Notes under the pieces: model-generated | The model's database searches: none | What the model was told of the DNA's origin: nothing | Seen by the model: only the letters and a program-made list of their open reading frames with translations | Made by a program: the position numbers and the translations under genes | Shown: positions 13,336-23,360 of the stretch, piece after piece | Layout: the number at the start of each line of letters is the position of its first letter | Numbering within the stretch: the first letter of the stretch is position 1 | Source: Asanoa ishikariensis | Lineage (GTDB): Bacteria > Actinomycetota > Actinomycetes > Mycobacteriales > Micromonosporaceae | DNA: 64,000 bases | Assembly (NCBI RefSeq): GCF_900107455.1 | Contig: NZ_FNQB01000004.1 | Coordinates: forward strand, 382,193 to 446,192 | Reading direction: 5' to 3'

Positions 13336-14318
13336 GTCGCCTCCACGGGATGCCAGCACGCGACGAGGTGGTCCGCCACGCCAAGGGCAGCAAGCGGCGG
13401 TGCCGAGCCGCGGCAGGTGTCGTCGGCCGCCGGGCAGCGGTCGGCGAACGTGCAGGCGTCCGGCTGGGTGGTCAGGACGGGCACGAGGCCGGGGATCTCC
13501 TGCAACCGGTCGGTGCCGGCGTGCCGTCCGGGTGTGGGGGAGGCGTTCAGCAGCCCGTTGGTGTACCGGTGGTGCGGGTGCGCGAACAACTCGGTCACCG
13601 GTGCGCGCTCCACGACGCGGCCGGCGTACATGACCACGACCCGGTCCGCGATGTCGGCGATCACGCCGAGGTCGTGGGTGATGATGAGGATGCTCGTGCC
13701 GAGCCGGTCCCGCAGGTCCCGCAGCACCTCGAGGATGCCGGCCTGCACGGTGACGTCGAGCGCGGTCGTCGGCTCGTCGGCGACCAGCACCGTCGGGTTG
13801 CACGCCACCGCCATCGCGATCATCACGCGTTGGCGCATGCCGCCGGAGAGCTGGTGCGGATAGTTGTCGACCCGCGTCGCCGCCGACGGGATGCCGACCA
13901 GCGACAGCAGCTCGATCGCCCGCGCCCTGGCCTGTTTGCGGGAGATTCGCTCGTGCACCTGGAGCACCTCGCCGATCTGCCGCCCGACGGTGAGCACCGG
14001 GTTCAGCGAGGTCATCGGCTCCTGGAAGATATAGGCGATCTCCTTACCGCGTACGCGCCGGAGCGAGGTCTCGGGGGCGCCGATGAGCTCCGTCCCACGG
14101 AGCCGGACCGAGCCCGTGACGCGGGCGCTGCGCGGCAGCAGACCGGCCAGGCTCATCGCCGTCACGCTCTTCCCGCAGCCAGACTCGCCGACGACGCCGA
14201 CGATCTCGCCGGGTGCCAGGTCCAGGCTCACGTGGTCGACCGCGGAGACGTTGCCACTCTCGGTCACGAACGACACCGACAGGTCGGCGACCTCGAGGAT
14301 CCGCGCACCGGCCGTCAT
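13332..14318 (-). CDS. Peptide ABC transporter ATP-binding protein (DppD/OppD type)
   Basis: A 328-residue ATPase: Walker [27 protein letters not shown], signature [19 protein letters not shown], Walker [16 protein letters not shown] and [10 protein letters not shown]. The C-terminal DppD extension ([30 protein letters not shown]) is complete. The ATG at 14318 overlaps the permease stop by 4 bp. With the DppF-type subunit it forms the heterodimeric engine of the importer. Confidence 0.93.
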
Positions 14319-15196
14319 CGATCGCCCTTCGGGTCGAGGGCGTCGCGGAGGGCGTCGCCGAACACGTTGAACGTCAACGCCAGGATCATGATGACCAGGC
14401 CAGGCAGCGTCGCCGCCCACGGTGCCCGGGCCGCGAACTGTTGCGCTGTCGCCAGCATCGTGCCCAGGCTCGGGTCCGGTGGTTGGATGCCCAGGCCGAG
14501 GAACGACAGCACCGCCTCACCGAGGATCGCGGCCGGCAGCGCCACGGTGGCCTGCACCAGGATGACCGAGGTCGCGTTGGGCAGGATGTGTCGAGACAGG
14601 ACCCACAGGTCGCTGGCGCCGTCGACCACCGCCGCGGCGACGAAGTCCAACGACTTGAGGCGCAGGGTGTCGGAGCGGATGACCCGGATGACGCCGGGAA
14701 TCTGGGCGATGCCGATCGCCACGGCCGCGTTGCCGAGGCTGGCACCCCGGATGGCCGCCAACCCCACCGCGAGGATGAGGAACGGAAACGCCAGCAGCAG
14801 GTCGGTGAACCGGCCGATGACCGCGTCGAAGGCCCGGAAGTAGCCGGCGGCCAGACCGAGCGGCACACCGATGACGAGCGCGGTGAGCACCGCGAGCAAC
14901 CCCACCTCGAGCGACGCCCGGGCGCCGAACATGATGCGGGACAACACGTCCCGGCCCAGGTCGTCGGTGCCGAGGAAGTGCCCGGGCGTGCCCGGTGGCG
15001 AGAAGATGTTGCCGAAGTCCGTGTCCTCGACCGAGTGCGGCGCGATCCACGGCGCCAGCAACGCGACCAGCACTGCGATCGCGAGGATCACGAAGCTGAT
15101 GACGGCGAGCGGGTTGCGCCGCAGCCGCCGGAAAACCCGGGTGCGCCGGGTCAGGCTGGGGCTGGTCTCGGCCTCCGGCACGGTCAAAATCGTCAT
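14315..15196 (-). CDS. Peptide ABC transporter permease (DppC type)
   Basis: A 293-residue inner-membrane permease. The N-terminal OppC/DppC block (RRLRRNPLAVISFVILAI), the GTDDLGRDVLSRIMFGARAS motif and the EAA-loop region (ASDLWVLSRHILPNATSVIL) are all present, with about six membrane helices. It overlaps both neighbours by 4 bp. It pairs with the DppB-type permease to form the channel. Confidence 0.93.
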   Translation of the reverse strand: MTILTVPEAETSPSLTRRTRVFRRLRRNPLAVISFVILAIAVLVALLAPWIAPHSVEDTDFGNIFSPPGTPGHFLGTDDLGRDVLSRIMFGARASLEVGLLAVLTALVIGVPLGLAAGYFRAFDAVIGRFTDLLLAFPFLILAVGLAAIRGASLGNAAVAIGIAQIPGVIRVIRSDTLRLKSLDFVAAAVVDGASDLWVLSRHILPNATSVILVQATVALPAAILGEAVLSFLGLGIQPPDPSLGTMLATAQQFAARAPWAATLPGLVIMILALTFNVFGDALRDALDPKGDR

Positions 15197-16149
15197 GCCG
15201 CGTCACCCGCCACTCGGATACGTGGGTCGATGAGCGAGTACACCAGGTCCACCAGGAAGTTGATCACAATGTACGCCGTAGCGGTCAGCAGCACGACCGC
15301 CTGGATCACCGGGTAGTCCCGTTGGAACACCGCGTCGATCGTCATCTTGCCGAAGCCGGGCAGCCCGAAGATCTGCTCGGTCACGACCGCCCCCGAGATG
15401 AGGCCGCCGAGCTGGAGGCCGACGATCGTGACGACCACGATGAGACTGTTGCGCAGGGCGTGCCGGCCGATCACGGCCCGCGGCGACAGGCCTTTGGCTT
15501 TGGCGGTGCGCACATAGTCCGCCGAGAGCGAGTCGAGCATCGCCGACCGGGTCTGCCGCATGATGATCGCCGCCAGGCCGGTGCCGAGGATCAGGGCGGG
15601 CAGGATGATGTGGTGCAGGTTGCCCACAGGGTCCTCGAAGAAGGGGACGAAGCCGGAGGCCGGAAACAGCCCCGTCGCCACCGACAGGTAGAGGATCGCG
15701 AGCAGTCCGAGCCAGAAGTGCGGCACCGAAAGGCCGACGAGGGCCAGGAAGTTGGCCACCCACTCGGCCGGGCGGCCGCGGCGCACTGCCGCGACCACCC
15801 CCGCGCCGACTCCCAGCGCGGTCGCGATGAGGATCGCCAGGAACGACAGCTCGATCGTGACCGGCAGCGCGGTGCGGAGCATGTCCGACACCGGTATGCC
15901 CGTGCGGATCGAGCTGCCGAAGTCGCCCTGCAGGGCCCGTTCCACGTAGTGTCCGAACTGGACCGTCAGGGGACGGTCCAGCCCGTACTCCGCGCGGATG
16001 GCCGCCAATGCCTCCGGCGAGCGGTCCTCGCCGGCCAGCGCGAGCGCGGGGTCCCCCGGAAGCGCACGGATTCCGAGGAACACCACCACCGACGCCAACA
16101 CCAGGGTCAACGCGGAGTGCCACGCACGGGTCAGCAGGTACCTGGCCAT
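15193..16149 (-). CDS. Peptide ABC transporter permease (DppB type)
   Basis: A 318-residue permease starting MARYLLTRAWHSALTLVLAS. It has the DppB/GsiC hallmarks: FLGIRALPGDPALALAGE, the long outside loop after helix 1, LAIRAEYGLDRPLTVQFGHY-like spacing, and the EAA loop AKGLSPRAVIGRHALRNSL. The gene begins 10 bp after the binding-protein gene and overlaps the DppC gene by 4 bp. Confidence 0.93.
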   Translation of the reverse strand: MARYLLTRAWHSALTLVLASVVVFLGIRALPGDPALALAGEDRSPEALAAIRAEYGLDRPLTVQFGHYVERALQGDFGSSIRTGIPVSDMLRTALPVTIELSFLAILIATALGVGAGVVAAVRRGRPAEWVANFLALVGLSVPHFWLGLLAILYLSVATGLFPASGFVPFFEDPVGNLHHIILPALILGTGLAAIIMRQTRSAMLDSLSADYVRTAKAKGLSPRAVIGRHALRNSLIVVVTIVGLQLGGLISGAVVTEQIFGLPGFGKMTIDAVFQRDYPVIQAVVLLTATAYIVINFLVDLVYSLIDPRIRVAGDAA

Positions 16150-16159
16150 CAGGGGGAAC

Positions 16160-17806
16160 CTACTTGGCGAAGCCGGCGAAGGCCGCCCGGATGACGCCGT
16201 CGGGATAGACCTGGACGCCCTTCACCTTGTTGGAGAACGCCGTCAGGTTGGCCTGCCGGTAGAGGTAGACGAGCGGGTTGTCCTCCTGGAGCAGGGTCAC
16301 CGCCTGCCCGTACAACTTCTTGCGCTCGTCGACGTTGCTCGACTGGCGAGCCTGGTCGAGCACGGCGTCCAATGCGGGGTTGCTGCTGCCGGCGACGTTC
16401 TGGCTGCCACCGGTGCCCACGAAGTTCACCATGTTGGCGTCCGGGTCGATGCGGCCGCTCCAACCGAGCTGGAGGATCTCGAAGTTGCCGCGGTCCTGCT
16501 CGTCGAGGAGCGACGAGTACTCGACCGGGCTGATCTCGATGTTGAAGCCGCCGTCCTTGACCATCGACTGGAGAGCCTGCGCGAGGCGCAGCGTGTCGGG
16601 GGTGTTCGAGGCCAACATCTTGATGGTGTACGGGACCTGCACGCCGGCTTCCTGGAGCAACTGCTTGGACTTGGCCGGGTCGTGCGCACGGCACTTCTGG
16701 GCCTCGTCGGACGAGAACACGCTCGCGGGTGAGATCGGGCTGCAGGCCGGGGTCGAGATCCCGTTGAACACGGCGTCGACCAGGGCCTTGCGGTCGATCG
16801 CGTACTCGAACGCCTGCCGTACCTTCGGGTCCTTCGCGATCGGACGGTCGATGGGCTTGGGCGGGGTGCCGATTCCGTCGACGTTGCCGACGTTGATGGT
16901 GATGCCCTGGTAGCCCAGCGACTGCGACTGGAGCACCGTCAGCGACGACTCCTTGCGCAGACTGTCGACGTCCTGCGTGGAGACGCTGTCCGCGACCTCG
17001 GCGTCGCCGGCCCGGAGGTTGGCCGAGCGGATGCTCGCGTCGGTCAGGATGCGCCACGAGATGGCGTCGAGGTGCACCTTGTCGGCGGCGTAGTAGTTCG
17101 AGTCGCGTACGACGTCGATCGAGCTCTGCGGCACCCGCTTGTCGAACTTGAACGGGCCCACGCAGACCGGCGCCGAGGCGAAGTTGGTGCCCAGGCTCTG
17201 GAGCGCCGCGGGACTCATGATCATGCCGGCGCGGTCGGCCAACGCGCCCAGCAACGGCGCGAACGGGTTCCTGAGGTGGATGGTGACGGTCTGCGCGTCG
17301 GTCGCGTCGACCTTGTCGATAGGACCTAGCTCGCTCTTGCGCGCCGACTCCGGCAGGGTCAGGTGCCGGTCGAGGGTGGTCTTCACGGCTGCCGCGTTGA
17401 ACTCGGTGCCGTCGGCGAACTTCACGCCCTGCCGCACCTTGATGGTGACGGTCTTGCCGTCAGGGCTGACGGTCGGCAGGTCGGTGGCGAGTTGCGGCAC
17501 CACCTGTGCCTTCTCGTTGACGTCGTACAGCTTCTCGCACATGGCCTGGAAGACGTAGCGCGAGTAGAGGCTCCGGGACAGGGAGGGGTCCAGCCGATCA
17601 GGCTCGGCCGACAGGGCGACCGTCAGCTTGCCGCCCTGCTTGACTTCGTCCGGGTTGGCCGGCGATCCGAAGGAATCCTGGGTCTGCGAAGGCTTCTGCT
17701 CGTCCGATCCGCCGTCTGGGGACACGGGTGAGCAGGCCGTGAGCGCACAAACGACCGCAACCGCACCGACGGCGGCCCGACCGATCGCACGCGAGATGTT
17801 CGTCAT
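16160..17806 (-). CDS. Peptide ABC transporter substrate-binding lipoprotein (DppA/GsiB type)
   Basis: A 548-residue family 5 solute-binding protein. ATG at 17806 has AGGAG 8 bases upstream and gives a lipoprotein signal peptide with cleavage before Cys in ALTACS. The mature protein has GGKLTVALSAEPDRLDPSLS, the ATDLPTVSPDGKTVTIKVRQG block and a VRQAFEYAIDRKALVDAVF block typical of family 5. It is the first gene of the transporter operon; the operator candidate at 17844-17856 lies 38 bp upstream. The terminal ggt gene points to gamma-glutamyl peptides such as glutathione as ligands, but this is inferred. Confidence 0.93.
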   Translation of the reverse strand: MTNISRAIGRAAVGAVAVVCALTACSPVSPDGGSDEQKPSQTQDSFGSPANPDEVKQGGKLTVALSAEPDRLDPSLSRSLYSRYVFQAMCEKLYDVNEKAQVVPQLATDLPTVSPDGKTVTIKVRQGVKFADGTEFNAAAVKTTLDRHLTLPESARKSELGPIDKVDATDAQTVTIHLRNPFAPLLGALADRAGMIMSPAALQSLGTNFASAPVCVGPFKFDKRVPQSSIDVVRDSNYYAADKVHLDAISWRILTDASIRSANLRAGDAEVADSVSTQDVDSLRKESSLTVLQSQSLGYQGITINVGNVDGIGTPPKPIDRPIAKDPKVRQAFEYAIDRKALVDAVFNGISTPACSPISPASVFSSDEAQKCRAHDPAKSKQLLQEAGVQVPYTIKMLASNTPDTLRLAQALQSMVKDGGFNIEISPVEYSSLLDEQDRGNFEILQLGWSGRIDPDANMVNFVGTGGSQNVAGSSNPALDAVLDQARQSSNVDERKKLYGQAVTLLQEDNPLVYLYRQANLTAFSNKVKGVQVYPDGVIRAAFAGFAK

Positions 17807-17843
17807 GTACGGGCTCCTATATCGACGATTGTCGGAGCGTATG

Positions 17844-17856
17844 TTGTATACGAAGA
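17844..17856. promoter_or_regulatory. Candidate GntR operator of the peptide ABC-ggt operon
   Basis: TTGTATACGAAGA is the exact reverse complement of the 13-mer at 9329-9341 in front of gntR. It lies 38 bp upstream of the binding-protein start, where a repressor would block transcription. It indicates one small regulon: gntR plus this operon. Confidence 0.68.
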
Positions 17857-17915
17857 TCGCGCAAGACACGGCTCGGATCACGGATCGACAGGTGTGAGAC
17901 GGCTTCGTGGTGACG

Positions 17916-18575
17916 TCACCGACGGGGGTTCGTCAGTGTCGCCAGGTTGTGTTCGGCGAGCTGGTGGCCGGCGGCGGCGGCCTCGCGGTACCACCGTTTC
18001 GCCTCGTCGGTGTCGCCCCGCCGGGCCGCGAGCAGGCCCAACCGGTTCATGGCCTCGGGATGGTGGTCGGCCAAGGCACGGCGAAACCAGTGCTCCGCCT
18101 CCTGGTCCCGGCCCTGGTCGTGGAACAGCAGCCCGAGCCGACATGCTGCGCGGGGATTGCCCGCGTCCACCGCCACCCGCTGCCAGCGCTCGGCCTCGGC
18201 GAAGTCGCCGCGATGGCGCAGCAGTTCACCTAGCTCGCTGGCCGGCATGAGCTGGCCCGCGTCGACGGCGATCCGCAGCCAATGCTCGGCCTCCTCGTCG
18301 CGGGCCAGGTCGACCAGCAGCGAACCCAGGTTGCCCGCGGCGCGCGCGTTCCCGGCCGTCGCGGCGGCCTGATGCAGCTCGACGGCTTTCGCGACGAGCC
18401 CGTGCTCCCAGGCGATGATGCCGAGCTCGGTCATCGCGTCGGTATGGCCGGCCGCGGCTGCGATCGAAAGATGGCGGTACGCCTTGACGAAATCGCCCTG
18501 CCTTCGCCAATGTGACCCGATCCGGTACGCGTCGTCGGTCGCGTCCGTGTCGGTCTCTTCAGCGAGCGGGGACAC
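17916..18575 (-). CDS. TPR/Sel1-repeat protein in the RiPP cluster
   Basis: A 219-residue protein built of about five repeats of roughly 36 residues with the pattern A-x2-LG-x-L-x5-G-x3-EAE-x-W-x-R-x-A (for example ASELGELLRHRGDFAEAERW and AACRLGLLFHDQGRDQEAEH). The GTG start overlaps the end of the HExxH gene by 17 bp, so it is co-transcribed. The repeats suggest protein or peptide binding; in this operon it may dock the precursor or the enzymes, which is inference. Confidence 0.85.
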   Translation of the reverse strand: MSPLAEETDTDATDDAYRIGSHWRRQGDFVKAYRHLSIAAAAGHTDAMTELGIIAWEHGLVAKAVELHQAAATAGNARAAGNLGSLLVDLARDEEAEHWLRIAVDAGQLMPASELGELLRHRGDFAEAERWQRVAVDAGNPRAACRLGLLFHDQGRDQEAEHWFRRALADHHPEAMNRLGLLAARRGDTDEAKRWYREAAAAGHQLAEHNLATLTNPRR

Positions 18576-20352
18576 GGACCGCGCTCCGCACGCCCAGCCA
18601 CCTCGCCAGTTCCACCGGACCGGCCGAACGCACCGCGCGGTGCAAGGCGCGCACGACCTCAGGACGGCTGGTCAACACCCGCGCCCCGTCCTCGTCACCG
18701 TTGCGGCGGCAGGCCAACGCCAGCCCCGCCCACTGCTCCGCCCGGTCCGGGTGCTCGACGAGCTGACGTTCATAACGGTCGATGGCGACCGCCCAGTCGC
18801 CGGCCACGTACGCGATGTCGGCCGGAGTCGCCTCGGCCGGCCGTTCCGCCCGCCCGTCGACGATCCGCCGGAACAGAGCCGGGTCGCGTAGCTGGATCTG
18901 CCGCGCTCTGACCCGGCCGCGTTCGCCGCTGAACTGGGTCCGTGCCACAGGACGGATCGTGTCGCCCACGGCATCGAGGTCCAGGCGCCGATCGTCGGCG
19001 TGGTGCCAGGCGGCGGCTAGCGCGTCGATCTCGGCCGCATCGGGGTGCAGGTTGAGCAGTCGCCACCGGAGCCAGTGGTCGGTCACGTCGTCGGCGGCGC
19101 TCGTCGCGTCGTCCGGCAGGTCCGGGTTCGGCCAGGACGCGACCTTGGCGCTCATCGCGCGGACGAAGCGCACGCCCTCGTCGGTCAGTAGGTCGGACTG
19201 CGTCAGGGTGTGCAGGGCGACCTCGACCTCACCGCGGGTACGCAGGAACTCGAACCGGGACTCCCGGTCGTCGCCGTTCTCCTGCCGGCGCCGCCAGAAG
19301 TCGCCGACGCCCATGAACGAGTAGGCGCCGTGCAGGATGCCGACCAGCGGGCGGGGATCGTCGCGCCACGGCGAGTACAGCAGCTCATTGCCCGAGGCCC
19401 GATGCAGCGGAATCAGTTCCAGCACCGCGTTCAGCATCGAGTGGAACAGCTCGTGGACGAGCGTGGTGGCGAACTTCTCCTCGTCGGCCGGGCGGGTGAG
19501 GAAGACGGCGCCGAACGCGTCGTTCGAGGTTATGCTCGCGCTCGCCAGGGCGGGCAGGTCAGCGAGCGGGATGAGCGAGCGCAGCGACTCGCCGGCCAGG
19601 CCGGCATGACGCGGATGCGACGAGACCAGCAGCGCCCAGGACCGCTCCAGCAGGTCCTGCCATCGGGCAAGCTCCGCGGTGGAGGCCCGCACGGCCAACG
19701 GTTCCAGGGTGTCGCGGTGCGGACTGAGGTCGTCGAGATCCGCGACGATGGTGCGTCCGTCGGCACTCGCGTGGAGCCGGCGCAGACCCCGCCAGCCGGG
19801 AGCGTCGCCGCTCGGGTCGGGCGGGATCGCCACCGTGCGGTCGCCCATGCGGACAACCGTGCCGGCCGGCTCGATCCGGATCGTCGCCGGATCGAACGCG
19901 TTCTCGTCCGCCAGGTGGGCCACCCCGAGCGTGGGCAGCATGACCTCACCCCGGCGCAGGGGCACGGTGACCTCTGCGGGGTGCCCCGCGCGGATCGCCG
20001 CGGCGGCGGCGACGGCGGCGATTTGTCCCACCACGACTCCGAGCGGCACGTCGTCCGCATCGGTCGTGGTGTGCAGCCGCCGCAGGCAGTGCGACAGCCA
20101 GGCACCGACCTGCGGATGGCCCAGCACCATCGTCACCGCCGTCGCGTCCGTCCGCTGCACCGCCGTGAGCAGCGCGATGTGCTGCCGCACCTCCGGGTGG
20201 GCGACGGCGGTGTCGTCGGCCAGTGCCCGTAGCTGCAGGAACCGCTTGGTCAGTTGGCCGTTCCGGAGGAGCCGGTACGTCTCGGGACGCGCGGCTCCGG
20301 CGGCGAGCGAGTCGAAGTCAGCACCGGAGAGGCCCAACGAGGTCAGCTTCAT
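18559..20352 (-). CDS. HExxH-motif peptide-modifying enzyme (aKG-HExxH peptide beta-hydroxylase-like)
   Basis: A 597-residue protein with HELFH (residues 300-304) inside TTLVHELFHSMLNAVLEL. The family of large actinobacterial 'HEXXH motif' proteins encoded beside FxsB-type radical SAM genes has the same layout and has been reclassified as alpha-ketoglutarate-dependent peptide beta-hydroxylases rather than proteases. The start ATG at 20352 overlaps the radical SAM stop as ATGA. The last 150 residues look TPR-like (AIDRYERQLVEHPDRAEQW). It should modify the precursor peptide together with the radical SAM enzyme. Family assignment is from motif and context; a metalloprotease role is the alternative. 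Confidence 0.8.
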   Translation of the reverse strand: MKLTSLGLSGADFDSLAAGAARPETYRLLRNGQLTKRFLQLRALADDTAVAHPEVRQHIALLTAVQRTDATAVTMVLGHPQVGAWLSHCLRRLHTTTDADDVPLGVVVGQIAAVAAAAAIRAGHPAEVTVPLRRGEVMLPTLGVAHLADENAFDPATIRIEPAGTVVRMGDRTVAIPPDPSGDAPGWRGLRRLHASADGRTIVADLDDLSPHRDTLEPLAVRASTAELARWQDLLERSWALLVSSHPRHAGLAGESLRSLIPLADLPALASASITSNDAFGAVFLTRPADEEKFATTLVHELFHSMLNAVLELIPLHRASGNELLYSPWRDDPRPLVGILHGAYSFMGVGDFWRRRQENGDDRESRFEFLRTRGEVEVALHTLTQSDLLTDEGVRFVRAMSAKVASWPNPDLPDDATSAADDVTDHWLRWRLLNLHPDAAEIDALAAAWHHADDRRLDLDAVGDTIRPVARTQFSGERGRVRARQIQLRDPALFRRIVDGRAERPAEATPADIAYVAGDWAVAIDRYERQLVEHPDRAEQWAGLALACRRNGDEDGARVLTSRPEVVRALHRAVRSAGPVELARWLGVRSAVRVPAR

Positions 20353-21560
20353 GCGGGACGCTCCACAAGGTCGCGCAGGTCGGTCGTGACGCGGTCGTTG
20401 ATGTGCGTGATCAGGGTGAACAGGTCCGGGCAGTACACGGACGGGTTCAGGAACCCGCTCCCGGCGCGGTACCGGTGTGGGAAGTAGCCGGCGCCACAGA
20501 CGTCGCGTACCGCGCATCGCTGACAGGTGTCGCACAGGGCCGACATGCCGACCTGGCGGGACACCGTCATGGGATGGTTCAGGGCGTCGTCGAAGGTGTG
20601 ACGGAAGACGTCCAGCCCCGTCTCCGGCGCCCCCGGGAACGTCGCCTTCAAGGTGTCCACCTGTTGGATCGAACCGTCCGTGTCGACCACCACGAGCGCG
20701 CGCGGCTCGAGCCCGATCGTCTCCACCTGGCCATGGCCACCAAGGAGGAGGTACAGCATGGAGTTGAGGAAGCGGATCCGGGTCTCCTGTCGGGGAGCGC
20801 CGTACCAGCGGTCGAACACGGCGATCAACCAGTCCGCGTACGGTGTGGCGGCCGGATCGGCGGTGCGGCCCGGCGGCGGCGCGTCCCAGGTGCCGTGTGG
20901 AAGCAGGAAGTCCACCAGCGGCGGCTCGAACGACAGCAGCGTCTCGTAGGTCTCGACCGGGGGGTTTTCCAGGTCGATCGTGCACAGGAGGTGGGAGAAG
21001 AGCCGGCGGTAGCGATCCTGGCGTAGCCGCTCGATCCCGCGGACCACAGCGTCGTAGCTCTCCCGGCCGCTGGCGTCACGGCGGTGCCGGTTTCCGCTGC
21101 GGTTCCCGTCCAGGCTGATGCTCACCATGACATCCAGGTCCAGCAGGCGATCCAGCACCCGGTCGGTCAGCAGGGTGCCGTTCGTCTGCATCCGGAACGT
21201 CAGGTCGACCCCGGCGGGCGTCGCGTGCCGGATGGCGTCCACCGCGTGCGCGATGCCGTCCGGGCCGGCCAGCAGCGGCTCCCCACCGTGCAGGACGATG
21301 TTGACGGCGCCCAGGTCGTGTGCGGCGGCGTGCTCGCCAATGCGGCGGGCCGTCTGCTCGACGGTCGCTGTCGACATGCCGCGTGGGCGGTCCCGCCAAG
21401 ACCGGTCCGCCATCTCGTAGATGTAGCAGTAGTCGCACGACAGGTTGCACCAGCCGTGCAGCTTGAGAATGAACTGCTGGAACGGGTACGGCTGCCAGAT
21501 CCGCGCCGCGCGTACCGAGGCCATCCACGAGTCGGTCGGCCACTGGACCGGAACTGTCAT
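20349..21560 (-). CDS. Radical SAM/SPASM peptide-modifying enzyme (FxsB-like)
   Basis: A 403-residue radical SAM enzyme. The [4Fe-4S] motif is CNLSCDYC (Cys38, Cys42, Cys45) preceded by the family-typical PFQQFILKLHGWC and followed by YIYEMADRSW. INIVLHGGEPLL-type and RMQTNGTLL motifs mark the SAM-binding barrel. A C-terminal SPASM-like cysteine set is in CDTCQRCAVRDVCGAGYFPH and a later Cys-Pro. These features match FxsB, which forms three-residue cyclophane cross-links in FxSxx-COOH peptides. ATG at 21560 has GGAGG 4-5 bases upstream. The candidate precursor lies directly upstream. The exact cross-link cannot be predicted. Confidence 0.88.
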   Translation of the reverse strand: MTVPVQWPTDSWMASVRAARIWQPYPFQQFILKLHGWCNLSCDYCYIYEMADRSWRDRPRGMSTATVEQTARRIGEHAAAHDLGAVNIVLHGGEPLLAGPDGIAHAVDAIRHATPAGVDLTFRMQTNGTLLTDRVLDRLLDLDVMVSISLDGNRSGNRHRRDASGRESYDAVVRGIERLRQDRYRRLFSHLLCTIDLENPPVETYETLLSFEPPLVDFLLPHGTWDAPPPGRTADPAATPYADWLIAVFDRWYGAPRQETRIRFLNSMLYLLLGGHGQVETIGLEPRALVVVDTDGSIQQVDTLKATFPGAPETGLDVFRHTFDDALNHPMTVSRQVGMSALCDTCQRCAVRDVCGAGYFPHRYRAGSGFLNPSVYCPDLFTLITHINDRVTTDLRDLVERPA

Positions 21561-21581
21561 CTGCCCTCCACGATGGAATGG

Positions 21582-21605
21582 TGGGCCGCGGAGAGCCACG
21601 GCCCA
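21582..21605. terminator. Hairpin between precursor and radical SAM gene (attenuator candidate)
   Basis: TGGGCCG at 21582-21588 pairs with CGGCCCA at 21599-21605, and two further G-C pairs close an AGAG loop. It lies in the 65-bp gap after the precursor stop. A hairpin here is typical of RiPP operons, where partial termination keeps precursor mRNA more abundant than enzyme mRNA. Confidence 0.5.
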
Positions 21606-21625
21606 GCCGCTCGGCGGTTGGTCCG

Positions 21626-21898
21626 TCAGCTTCCGTGGGCAGCGAAGCCGAGGGTTGCCGTCCGGCCCATGTTTCGGGCGGCCTGGACCGCGGTGGCGAG
21701 GACCGAGTCATCCGACGTCATCAGCTCGACGAGGTCGGCCTGCTCGATGACGGGCAACGCGGATGCGAAACTGGCCACCTTGGCGGCCACCTCGGTGGGC
21801 GCGAGTTGCTCACCCGCGATGGTGACTCCGGCGACCGCGGCGGTGACGGCCAGTGCGGCACCACCGACGGCGACTGGCTTCTCGATGTGCGACCTCAT
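21626..21898 (-). CDS. Candidate RiPP precursor peptide
   Basis: A 90-residue open frame with a strong ribosome site (GAGGAGG, 6 bases before ATG at 21898), co-oriented with and just upstream of the FxsB-like gene. It has a hydrophobic stretch (about residues 8-30, KPVAVGGAALAVTAAVAGVT and following), an acidic/helical middle (VIEQADLVELMTSDDSV) and a C-terminus TLGFAAHGS. FxsA precursors end in FxSxx; this one does not, though FAS occurs inside at 44-46, so it is a variant core or a different class. Its small size, position and ribosome site support a precursor, but no product is known. Confidence 0.65.
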   Translation of the reverse strand: MRSHIEKPVAVGGAALAVTAAVAGVTIAGEQLAPTEVAAKVASFASALPVIEQADLVELMTSDDSVLATAVQAARNMGRTATLGFAAHGS

Positions 21899-22007: not shown

Positions 22008-23360
22008 CTATGAGACTCCGTGGTGGATCTGGACGCCGGCCTCTGCCATCGCCTTGATGATCTGGGCGGACTCGCCGAAACCGATGAGGAGCACGCCGTC
22101 GGGCTTGGTGGTCTTGATCTGGCTGGCGCCGGTGCTGAAGTCGATGTCCGGCGCACCGGGCGTCGGCGGCTCGTACTCCATCGTCTCGACCTTGTCGGTC
22201 GGGAACCCGGCCTTCTCCAACTCGGAGATGACGTTCTCCTGGAGGCCGGTGCCGTACGAGTCGTCGCGCGCCACGATCGCGAGCTTGTGCGGGCCGTCGC
22301 GGAGGATGACGTCGGCCAGCGCGCGGCCTTGCAGGATGTCGGACGGCGAGGTGCGGAAGAACAGGCCCTTGTCGTCGATCGTGCTGAGCCCGGCGTCGGT
22401 GTTGCAGGGTGAGAAGAGGATCAGGCCGGCCTTGACCACGTCGGGCAGCACCTCGCGGGAGATGCTCGACGCGCCGGCCCCGATGATCACGCTGACCTTG
22501 GCGGCGACGTGCTTGGCCACGGTCTCCTTCGCGACGTCCGGGTTGGTGCCGTCGTCGCCGGGCACCCACTGCACGTCCTTGGCGAACACACCGCCGGCCG
22601 CGTTGACCTCCTGGATGGCGAGCGCCGCGCCGGCCTCCATCGGCGGGTTGGCCAGGGCCAGGTCGCCGGTCTCCGGCAACAGCCCGCCGATCTTCAGCGC
22701 CTGCACGTCGCGCGCCGGCACCGCTCGCGGCGGCTTCTTCGTGGAAGTGGTCGACTCGTCGCCCGCGCCGACGTACTCCGTCTTGCTGTCGTCGAGCTTG
22801 TCCTCGGGTCCGAAGTGGAGCGTCGCGTAGCTCGCGGTGGACGGCTCGCCCGCGTCGGTGAACCCGCCGCGGGTCAGCGAGATCCCGCGGTAGTTGAGGT
22901 CGGTGCCCGCACGCGCGAGCGCCAGGCAGTCGGCCACGGCCGTGCACTCGGTGCCGCCGGTGGTGATCGAGTTGATCTGGCGGGCGATCGTGCGCGGGTC
23001 GTTGCTGCCGGCCTGTTCCGCGGCGAGCGTGCTGATCACCACGGCGTCGTAGGTCTCGCCCGCGAACAGGTAGTCGGTCAGGCCGGGGTGCACCGCGTTG
23101 AGCCGCGACTTGAAGTCCTCGGACAGCGGGGTGAGCGGGGTGGTCCCCTTCATCCCGGCCAGCAGTCCGGCCTGGTTCGAGAACTCGTCACCGAACGTGT
23201 TGATCATATTTCCGTCGGTGCCGTACAGCCGCGTGAGGCCGGCGGTCGTGCCGCTGTCGGCGCCCTGCGGCGGCGTTCCCTGCTGGCAGGCGGCGACGGT
23301 CAAGAGCAGCGTGGCGGACATGGCGGTGGCCAGCCCGCGCGCTCCGGTGGAGACGTGCAT
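22008..23360 (-). CDS. Branched-chain amino acid-type ABC binding protein with circularly permuted halves
   Basis: A 450-residue lipoprotein (signal peptide with cleavage before Cys25 in TVAACQQ). Its family is LivK-like type 1 binding proteins, but the order is swapped. Residues 42-200 (from LYGTDGNMINTFGD, through ETYDAVVISTLAAEQAGS to GGFTDAGEPSTASYATLHFG) are what normally ends such proteins. After a polar linker (201-221, DESTTSTKKPPRAVPARD) residues 222-445 (LKIGGLLPETGDLA, AGAALAIQEVNAAGGV, GLFFRTSPSDILQGRALADV, VLLIGFGESAQIIKAM) are what normally begins them. The end AEAGVQIHHGVS would join directly to LTRLYGTDGN in the normal order. No permease or ATPase lies nearby. The frame is uninterrupted, so it is probably a working protein. 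Confidence 0.9.
   Translation of the reverse strand: MHVSTGARGLATAMSATLLLTVAACQQGTPPQGADSGTTAGLTRLYGTDGNMINTFGDEFSNQAGLLAGMKGTTPLTPLSEDFKSRLNAVHPGLTDYLFAGETYDAVVISTLAAEQAGSNDPRTIARQINSITTGGTECTAVADCLALARAGTDLNYRGISLTRGGFTDAGEPSTASYATLHFGPEDKLDDSKTEYVGAGDESTTSTKKPPRAVPARDVQALKIGGLLPETGDLALANPPMEAGAALAIQEVNAAGGVFAKDVQWVPGDDGTNPDVAKETVAKHVAAKVSVIIGAGASSISREVLPDVVKAGLILFSPCNTDAGLSTIDDKGLFFRTSPSDILQGRALADVILRDGPHKLAIVARDDSYGTGLQENVISELEKAGFPTDKVETMEYEPPTPGAPDIDFSTGASQIKTTKPDGVLLIGFGESAQIIKAMAEAGVQIHHGVS

Follow-up and report, generated by a model that had tools for sequence, protein, structure and literature searches.

A lipoprotein gene in the window (the whole 64 kb stretch of DNA that was analysed) encodes a natural circular permutation of a LivK-type binding protein; comparison with usual-order relatives confirmed that the two halves of the chain are swapped. 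The permuted form is widespread in two bacterial families. The product is very probably a naturally permuted LivK-type amino-acid-binding lipoprotein which, in the window's family (Micromonosporaceae), would act as a tethered binder uncoupled from an importer. The preliminary description had placed the gene at 22008..23360, which is right; it is read from the minus strand, the plus-strand translation of these positions being interrupted by stops. Coordinates of the gene, its parts and its neighbours are collected in Table 1.

Table 1. Window positions of the permuted gene, its parts and the neighbouring genes.
Feature	Positions	Strand	Remarks
Whole CDS, circularly permuted LivK-type binding protein	22008..23360	-	450 aa plus stop
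Lipoprotein signal peptide, residues 1-24, and lipobox Cys25	23286..23360	-	Cys column in 60/61 permuted proteins
Variable N-terminal spacer, residues 26-43	23232..23285	-	alignment, dN/dS comparison
C-half, residues 44-198, the C-terminal part in usual order; starts at strand YGTDGN	22767..23231	-	BLAST, alignment
Linker, residues 199-221, from old C-terminus to old N-terminus	22698..22766	-	alignment
N-half, residues 222-450, the N-terminal part in usual order	22011..22697	-	Pfam, structure-database and BLAST matches
Asp49, corresponding to Asp226 of 3ipc	23214..23216	-	weak second domain, 5.7 bits; 54/54 type A
Ser298, corresponding to position 79 of LivJ	22467..22469	-	aligned to 1z15; 61/61 permuted
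Thr321, corresponding to position 102 of LivJ	22398..22400	-	aligned to 1z15; 61/61 permuted
Tyr369, corresponding to position 150 of LivJ	22254..22256	-	aligned to 1z15; 61/61 permuted
RiPP genes	18559-21898	-	FxsB, HExxH protein, precursor
Likely RiPP precursor, 90 aa	21626-21898	-	same strand as binding-protein gene
Opp-type operon with permeases and an SBP_bac_5 binding protein, beyond the RiPP genes	14315-17881	-	

The swap was read from BLAST comparisons with usual-order sister proteins, against which the window protein aligned as two crossed segments; with L077, query residues 204-443 fell on 90-321 and query residues 31-187 on 314-466. With each of L077-L083 and L043 the query N-half (200-222 to 442-443) aligned first and the C-half (31-45 to 187-195) directly after it, and identity between the usual-order relatives and the window protein was 31-45% over the N-half and 29-39% over the C-half. 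The preliminary description had proposed this permutation, with the C-terminal half first, the N-terminal half second, an intact lipoprotein signal peptide at the head and nothing lost. All of this is borne out: the boundaries are set here at residues 44-198 and 222-445, the lipobox Cys25 is present, both halves match the usual-order sisters so that nothing was evidently lost, and the alignment of the halves with the LivK family that it had suggested shows them in reverse sequence in the usual-order relatives.

The best Peripla_BP_6 stretch in a Pfam search (PF13458, 131 bits) covered residues 222-444 (profile 2-216 of 343), and a second Peripla_BP_6 stretch also passed. By sequence, the closest solved relatives were of LivJ/LivK type (4gnr, 4n0q, 1z15) and matched over the N-half only; a sequence search of solved structures with the C-half alone gave chance-like matches, none credible, and the identity of this half is therefore taken from the usual-order relatives. 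The comparison set consisted of 61 permuted proteins (window included) and 33 usual-order proteins. Cys139 and Cys145 were present in every one of them (61/61 and 33/33), and the sole permuted protein lacking a cysteine at the lipobox column (1/61; L095) carries one two columns later.

The same genome holds a paralogue of the permuted protein (76% identical), and two permuted copies were found in four of six genomes of the genus; the nearest named relative of the window's genome is Asanoa hainanensis (90%). When 200 Micromonosporaceae genomes were scored by best E-value per genome, 120 matched the permuted protein over its full length (E-value 1e-155 or better), 36 had weaker matches only (1e-44 to 1e-72) in the pattern of usual-order proteins, their order not being checked singly, and 44 had no match at 1e-30. 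Among the matches listed for f16, a second family of the same order, at least 66 genomes carried a permuted protein, as did one f13 genome. A sample of the phylum (396 genomes) yielded eight with a match at 1e-95, six of which belong to families f30, f43 and f84, in two classes outside that of the window. In one class, 5 of 218 genomes gave a full-length match of the type found there (type B, below), and in the other 2 of 66 did; the remaining matches listed in those two classes were partial, and the 19 fetched were all usual-order. A search of 299 Pseudomonadota genomes with the type B profile at 1e-42 matched none, a result that shows little, the search being without a positive control. Circular permutation had been described as rare in this fold: the order is real, but the protein is one member of a conserved family. 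A lone-gene oddity was ruled out by these relatives, the paralogue in the window's own genome included.

Permuted copies are found both with and without transporter genes. In f16, livFGMH adjoined the permuted gene in 11 of 15 copies, in the position held in f8 by a usual-order protein; the other four were L089, at a contig edge, and L096, L097 and L101, which are second, orphan copies. The f13 copy is adjoined by livF and livG, and by a contig edge. Liv genes lay beside six of the seven type B copies at the threshold used, and the seventh, L107, has the same neighbour clusters. In contrast, liv permease genes stood beside none of the 38 Micromonosporaceae permuted copies within the stretches fetched (4 to 20 kb, several ending at contig edges, so that "no liv genes" means none in that stretch), and the 64 kb window contains no livHMGF. 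The earlier claim that the protein has no transporter partner thus holds for the window copy and the 38 Micromonosporaceae copies, but not for those of f16 and type B. The cognate LivM was found at E<=1e-100 in all four f16 genomes tested and in 7 of 29 Micromonosporaceae genomes tested, these being the seven that gave a fetched usual-order copy. The best LivM match in the other 22 was 2.5e-33 or weaker, and Micromonosporaceae genomes tested that have the permuted form only lacked a cognate LivM. The window's genome gave nine LivM matches at 1e-12, 28-34% identical to the cognate LivM and all having another Peripla_BP_6 match no more than 3 kb away; this makes the window copy an orphan.

The liv-adjacent permuted copies of f16 would be expected to feed the importer. 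In the window's family the protein, uncoupled from the liv importer, would bind amino acids while tethered, its most likely role being that of a sensor or scavenger. Orphan copies might instead still transport, passing ligand in trans to other amino-acid (HAAT) importers, as the intact pocket residues and the number of LivM-type matches in the window's genome would allow; however, the low identity of these nine to the cognate LivM and their nearness to binding-protein genes of their own speak against it, and we consider such transport unlikely, though an alternative of some weight.

Some neighbours of the orphan copies recur. Of the 38 Micromonosporaceae permuted loci, 22 had a K4 or K7 gene next upstream, and 20 had a K5 or K20 gene within the three genes that follow downstream. 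Pfam searches with one example per cluster identified K7 as a 4HBT thioesterase and K5 as a protein with FG-GAP-like repeats; K20 was DUF6802-like below the cut-off, and K4 had no match. The second permuted copy, L045 (G000:C2:368446), is preceded by genes for a 4HBT thioesterase and an unknown protein of 129 aa, and followed by those for a DUF6802-like protein (below the cut-off) and proteins with FG-GAP-like DxDxDG repeats; such neighbours occur in about half of the 38 loci, making this a conserved orphan locus. A thioesterase of cluster K7 neighbours the orphan gene in Micromonosporaceae and recurs beyond livH in several f16 loci (in L085, 6736-7137 after the start of the permuted gene), and this shared gene suggests that the orphan locus derived from a liv locus after loss of the transporter genes. 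At L038 and L039, the permuted gene is directly followed downstream by a pair of K1 genes (the ABC-ATPase cluster) and a large K28 gene; by the liv-neighbour test these are not livFGMH, and they are possibly another partner in that sub-clade.

A natural circular permutation is commonly regarded as a single ancient event. Two cut sites were found here. Type A proteins (f1, f16, f13) start at strand YGTDGN and end near GIGP or its equivalent; type B proteins (f30, f43, f84) carry the YGTDGN strand-helix unit at the C-terminus and start about 25 residues later, at LEGMKGT, the two sites being one strand-helix unit apart. By profile alignment the cut of the window protein falls at about residue 218-220 of 3ipc, which we take to be in the C lobe. 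A first tree was built from 64 rows (14 of 78 rows being dropped) and a second from halves that were aligned apart and then joined (55 rows, 345 columns), comprising 24 of the 61 permuted proteins, 27 of the 33 usual-order proteins and 4 outgroup rows; those left out included the long branches L043 and L083. In the second tree, type A (17 rows, 95/92) stood beside usual-order f8 proteins (100/99), type B1 (5 rows, 100/98) stood apart, with a weak attachment to usual-order L115 (91/35), and the two rows of type B2 stood beside usual-order L116 (99/95), which implies three changes of order. AU tests on this tree, of clades chosen after the first tree had been seen, rejected a single clade of A, B1 and B2 (p=4e-6) and a single clade of B1 and B2 (p=3e-4), which have a common cut site, and did not reject A with B1 (p=0.17); on the first tree, A together with all type B was rejected (p=0.0015). 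When the halves were analysed separately, B1 formed its own clade in both trees, B2 stood beside L116 in the N-half tree and grouped with L116, L117 and L119 in the C-half tree, and type A was one clade in the C-half tree and not in the N-half quick tree, where Micromonosporaceae rows branched first. The B2 gene also has another position, being divergent from livH instead of convergent with livF.

These rejections, with A and B1 together left unrejected, indicate at least two origins of the permutation, and probably three. On balance we favour a history in which the liv binding protein of Actinomycetota was permuted on at least two occasions and probably on three, in every case within one strand-helix unit of lobe 2 and each time with the anchor moving from lobe 1 to lobe 2, after which one lineage was uncoupled from the transporter and became an orphan across most of its family. 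A likely route would be tandem duplication with subsequent loss of the outer parts; the ORFs of the fetched loci included no tandem or half-duplicated intermediate. A single ancient permutation, after which the cut site shifted and some lines reverted, would account for the closeness of the two cuts and for the unrejected clade of A and B1. It would require reversions to the usual order, however, and the two rejected clades of the second tree, the place of B2 among usual-order proteins in both half-trees and its position on the opposite side of the liv genes, adjoining livH, make a single origin improbable. Repeated permutation at one site would argue that the change was selected or structurally favoured.

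Ser79, Thr102, Tyr150 and Glu226 of LivJ are presumably ligand-pocket residues, Glu226 being, we assume, the ammonium contact. The serine, threonine and tyrosine are kept in all permuted proteins (Table 1). The aspartate, aligned weakly to 3ipc (a leucine complex), is kept in all type A proteins and, at the C-terminus, in 7/7 of type B, as read from the C-termini. By these alignments the pocket would be drawn from both swapped halves, with one side now supplied by residue 49 and the rest by residues 298-369, and a putative amino-acid pocket appears to be conserved. Family and pocket point to amino acids rather than to glucose or galactose.

A structure prediction, proposed in the preliminary description, gave a best model (9 sequences) with mean pLDDT 80 and pTM 0.80, the other four of five reaching pLDDT 66-68; model confidence was below 50 at mature residues 175-186 (199-210 of the full chain, in the linker), and the spacer was also uncertain. 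Foldseek matches to this model were LivJ/LivK-type leucine-binding proteins, with only ~230 columns aligned in sequence order and a best TM-score of 0.47 by query, as the permutation predicts. The chain is thus predicted to fold into an ordinary two-lobed Venus flytrap, the old ends being joined by a flexible linker and the new ends lying in lobe 2; since the cut is in the C lobe, the lipid anchor would hold the protein by lobe 2 instead of lobe 1. A domain-swapped dimer, in which the halves pair between two chains and not within one, could use the linker of ~23 residues, predicted to be flexible, to form its contacts between chains; the fairly confident single-chain model and the roughly conserved linker length count against it, and we regard it as quite unlikely.

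The permutation has a precedent in TpMglB-2 (Tp0684) of Treponema pallidum, a type I (cluster B) binding lipoprotein that is circularly permuted in nature. According to its report (PMC4990184), it is a relative of MglB with glucose as ligand, in which the N lobe is cut and three strands are moved to the end; proteins of this kind are proposed as "Type Ic / Cluster Bc" ligand-binding proteins, homologues of the same topology are noted in treponemes and Gram-positives, and membrane tethering is raised as a possible reason for the permutation. The window protein is likewise a permuted type I binding lipoprotein. It is new relative to TpMglB-2 in family (LivK rather than sugar-binding MglB), in the lobe that is cut (C lobe rather than N lobe), in the recurrence of the permutation and in being uncoupled in part from the transporter. 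No permuted LivK-type protein was found in the literature searched (open-licence PMC papers). With the LivJ/LivK-type proteins (Peripla_BP_6; 4n0q, 1z15, 3ipc, 1usg) it shares an N-half homologous by sequence and predicted fold, and the pocket residues; these proteins have the canonical order, whereas the window protein is swapped and has no adjacent transporter. Its nearest relatives, the usual-order Actinomycetota proteins (L077-L083, L102, L109-L113, L115-L133), are homologous over both halves and have the two conserved cysteines in common with it, and most stand beside livFGMH; they differ in keeping the canonical order.

Permuted and usual-order proteins that stand beside the same transporter genes are roughly 40-60% identical per half, so that the effects of moving the ends can be compared between near relatives; the influence of the moved ends and tether on binding, docking and transport is thereby testable. 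The permuted proteins are also natural scaffolds for amino-acid biosensors, in which permutation is usually engineered. Tools that depend on sequence order see such proteins only in part, as the extent of the best Pfam stretch illustrates.

The window gene adjoins an FxsB/HExxH cluster, which is a known kind of RiPP cluster and is not tied to the binding protein. It contains an FxsB-type cyclophane radical SAM/SPASM maturase (TIGR04269, 456 bits) and a protein with an aKG-HExxH-type peptide beta-hydroxylase domain (TIGR04267, 148 bits). The permuted protein might be part of this system, for example by binding its peptide product: the strand is shared, and the likely precursor begins 109 bases after the stop of the permuted gene. 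Against this, none of the 60 other permuted loci has a close FxsB or the precursor, and eight have only a distant, partial radical SAM match (30-38% identical), which makes such a role very unlikely. The neighbourhood noted in the preliminary description is therefore real as an adjacency but not conserved as a link, and the search it had proposed, for proteins of the same order next to radical SAM/HExxH genes, brought up neither a close FxsB nor a precursor at those loci. A RiPP partnership was accordingly rejected, the neighbourhood with FxsB not being conserved. In Asanoa hainanensis the opp operon directly follows the permuted gene, without RiPP genes, and its binding protein is 92% identical.

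When 36 distinct permuted loci were aligned, that of the window among them, the alignment ran unbroken from the signal peptide through linker 199-221 to the end, with linker length roughly conserved, and the assembly break within 22690-22770 that had been raised as a possible objection is thereby removed. Values of dN/dS, from the simple Nei-Gojobori method applied to G+C-rich genes, were 0.12-0.38 in both halves against four relatives, the paralogue among them, and indicate that purifying selection acts on both halves of the window protein. Given the identical order in independent genomes and dN/dS well under 1, the chance that the gene is an assembly artefact or pseudogene is negligible.

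In L077 and L112, LivH (cluster K6) has a signal-like start and ~100 residues that look extracellular by eye, followed by the permease part; such an N-terminal extension seems unusual for LivH.
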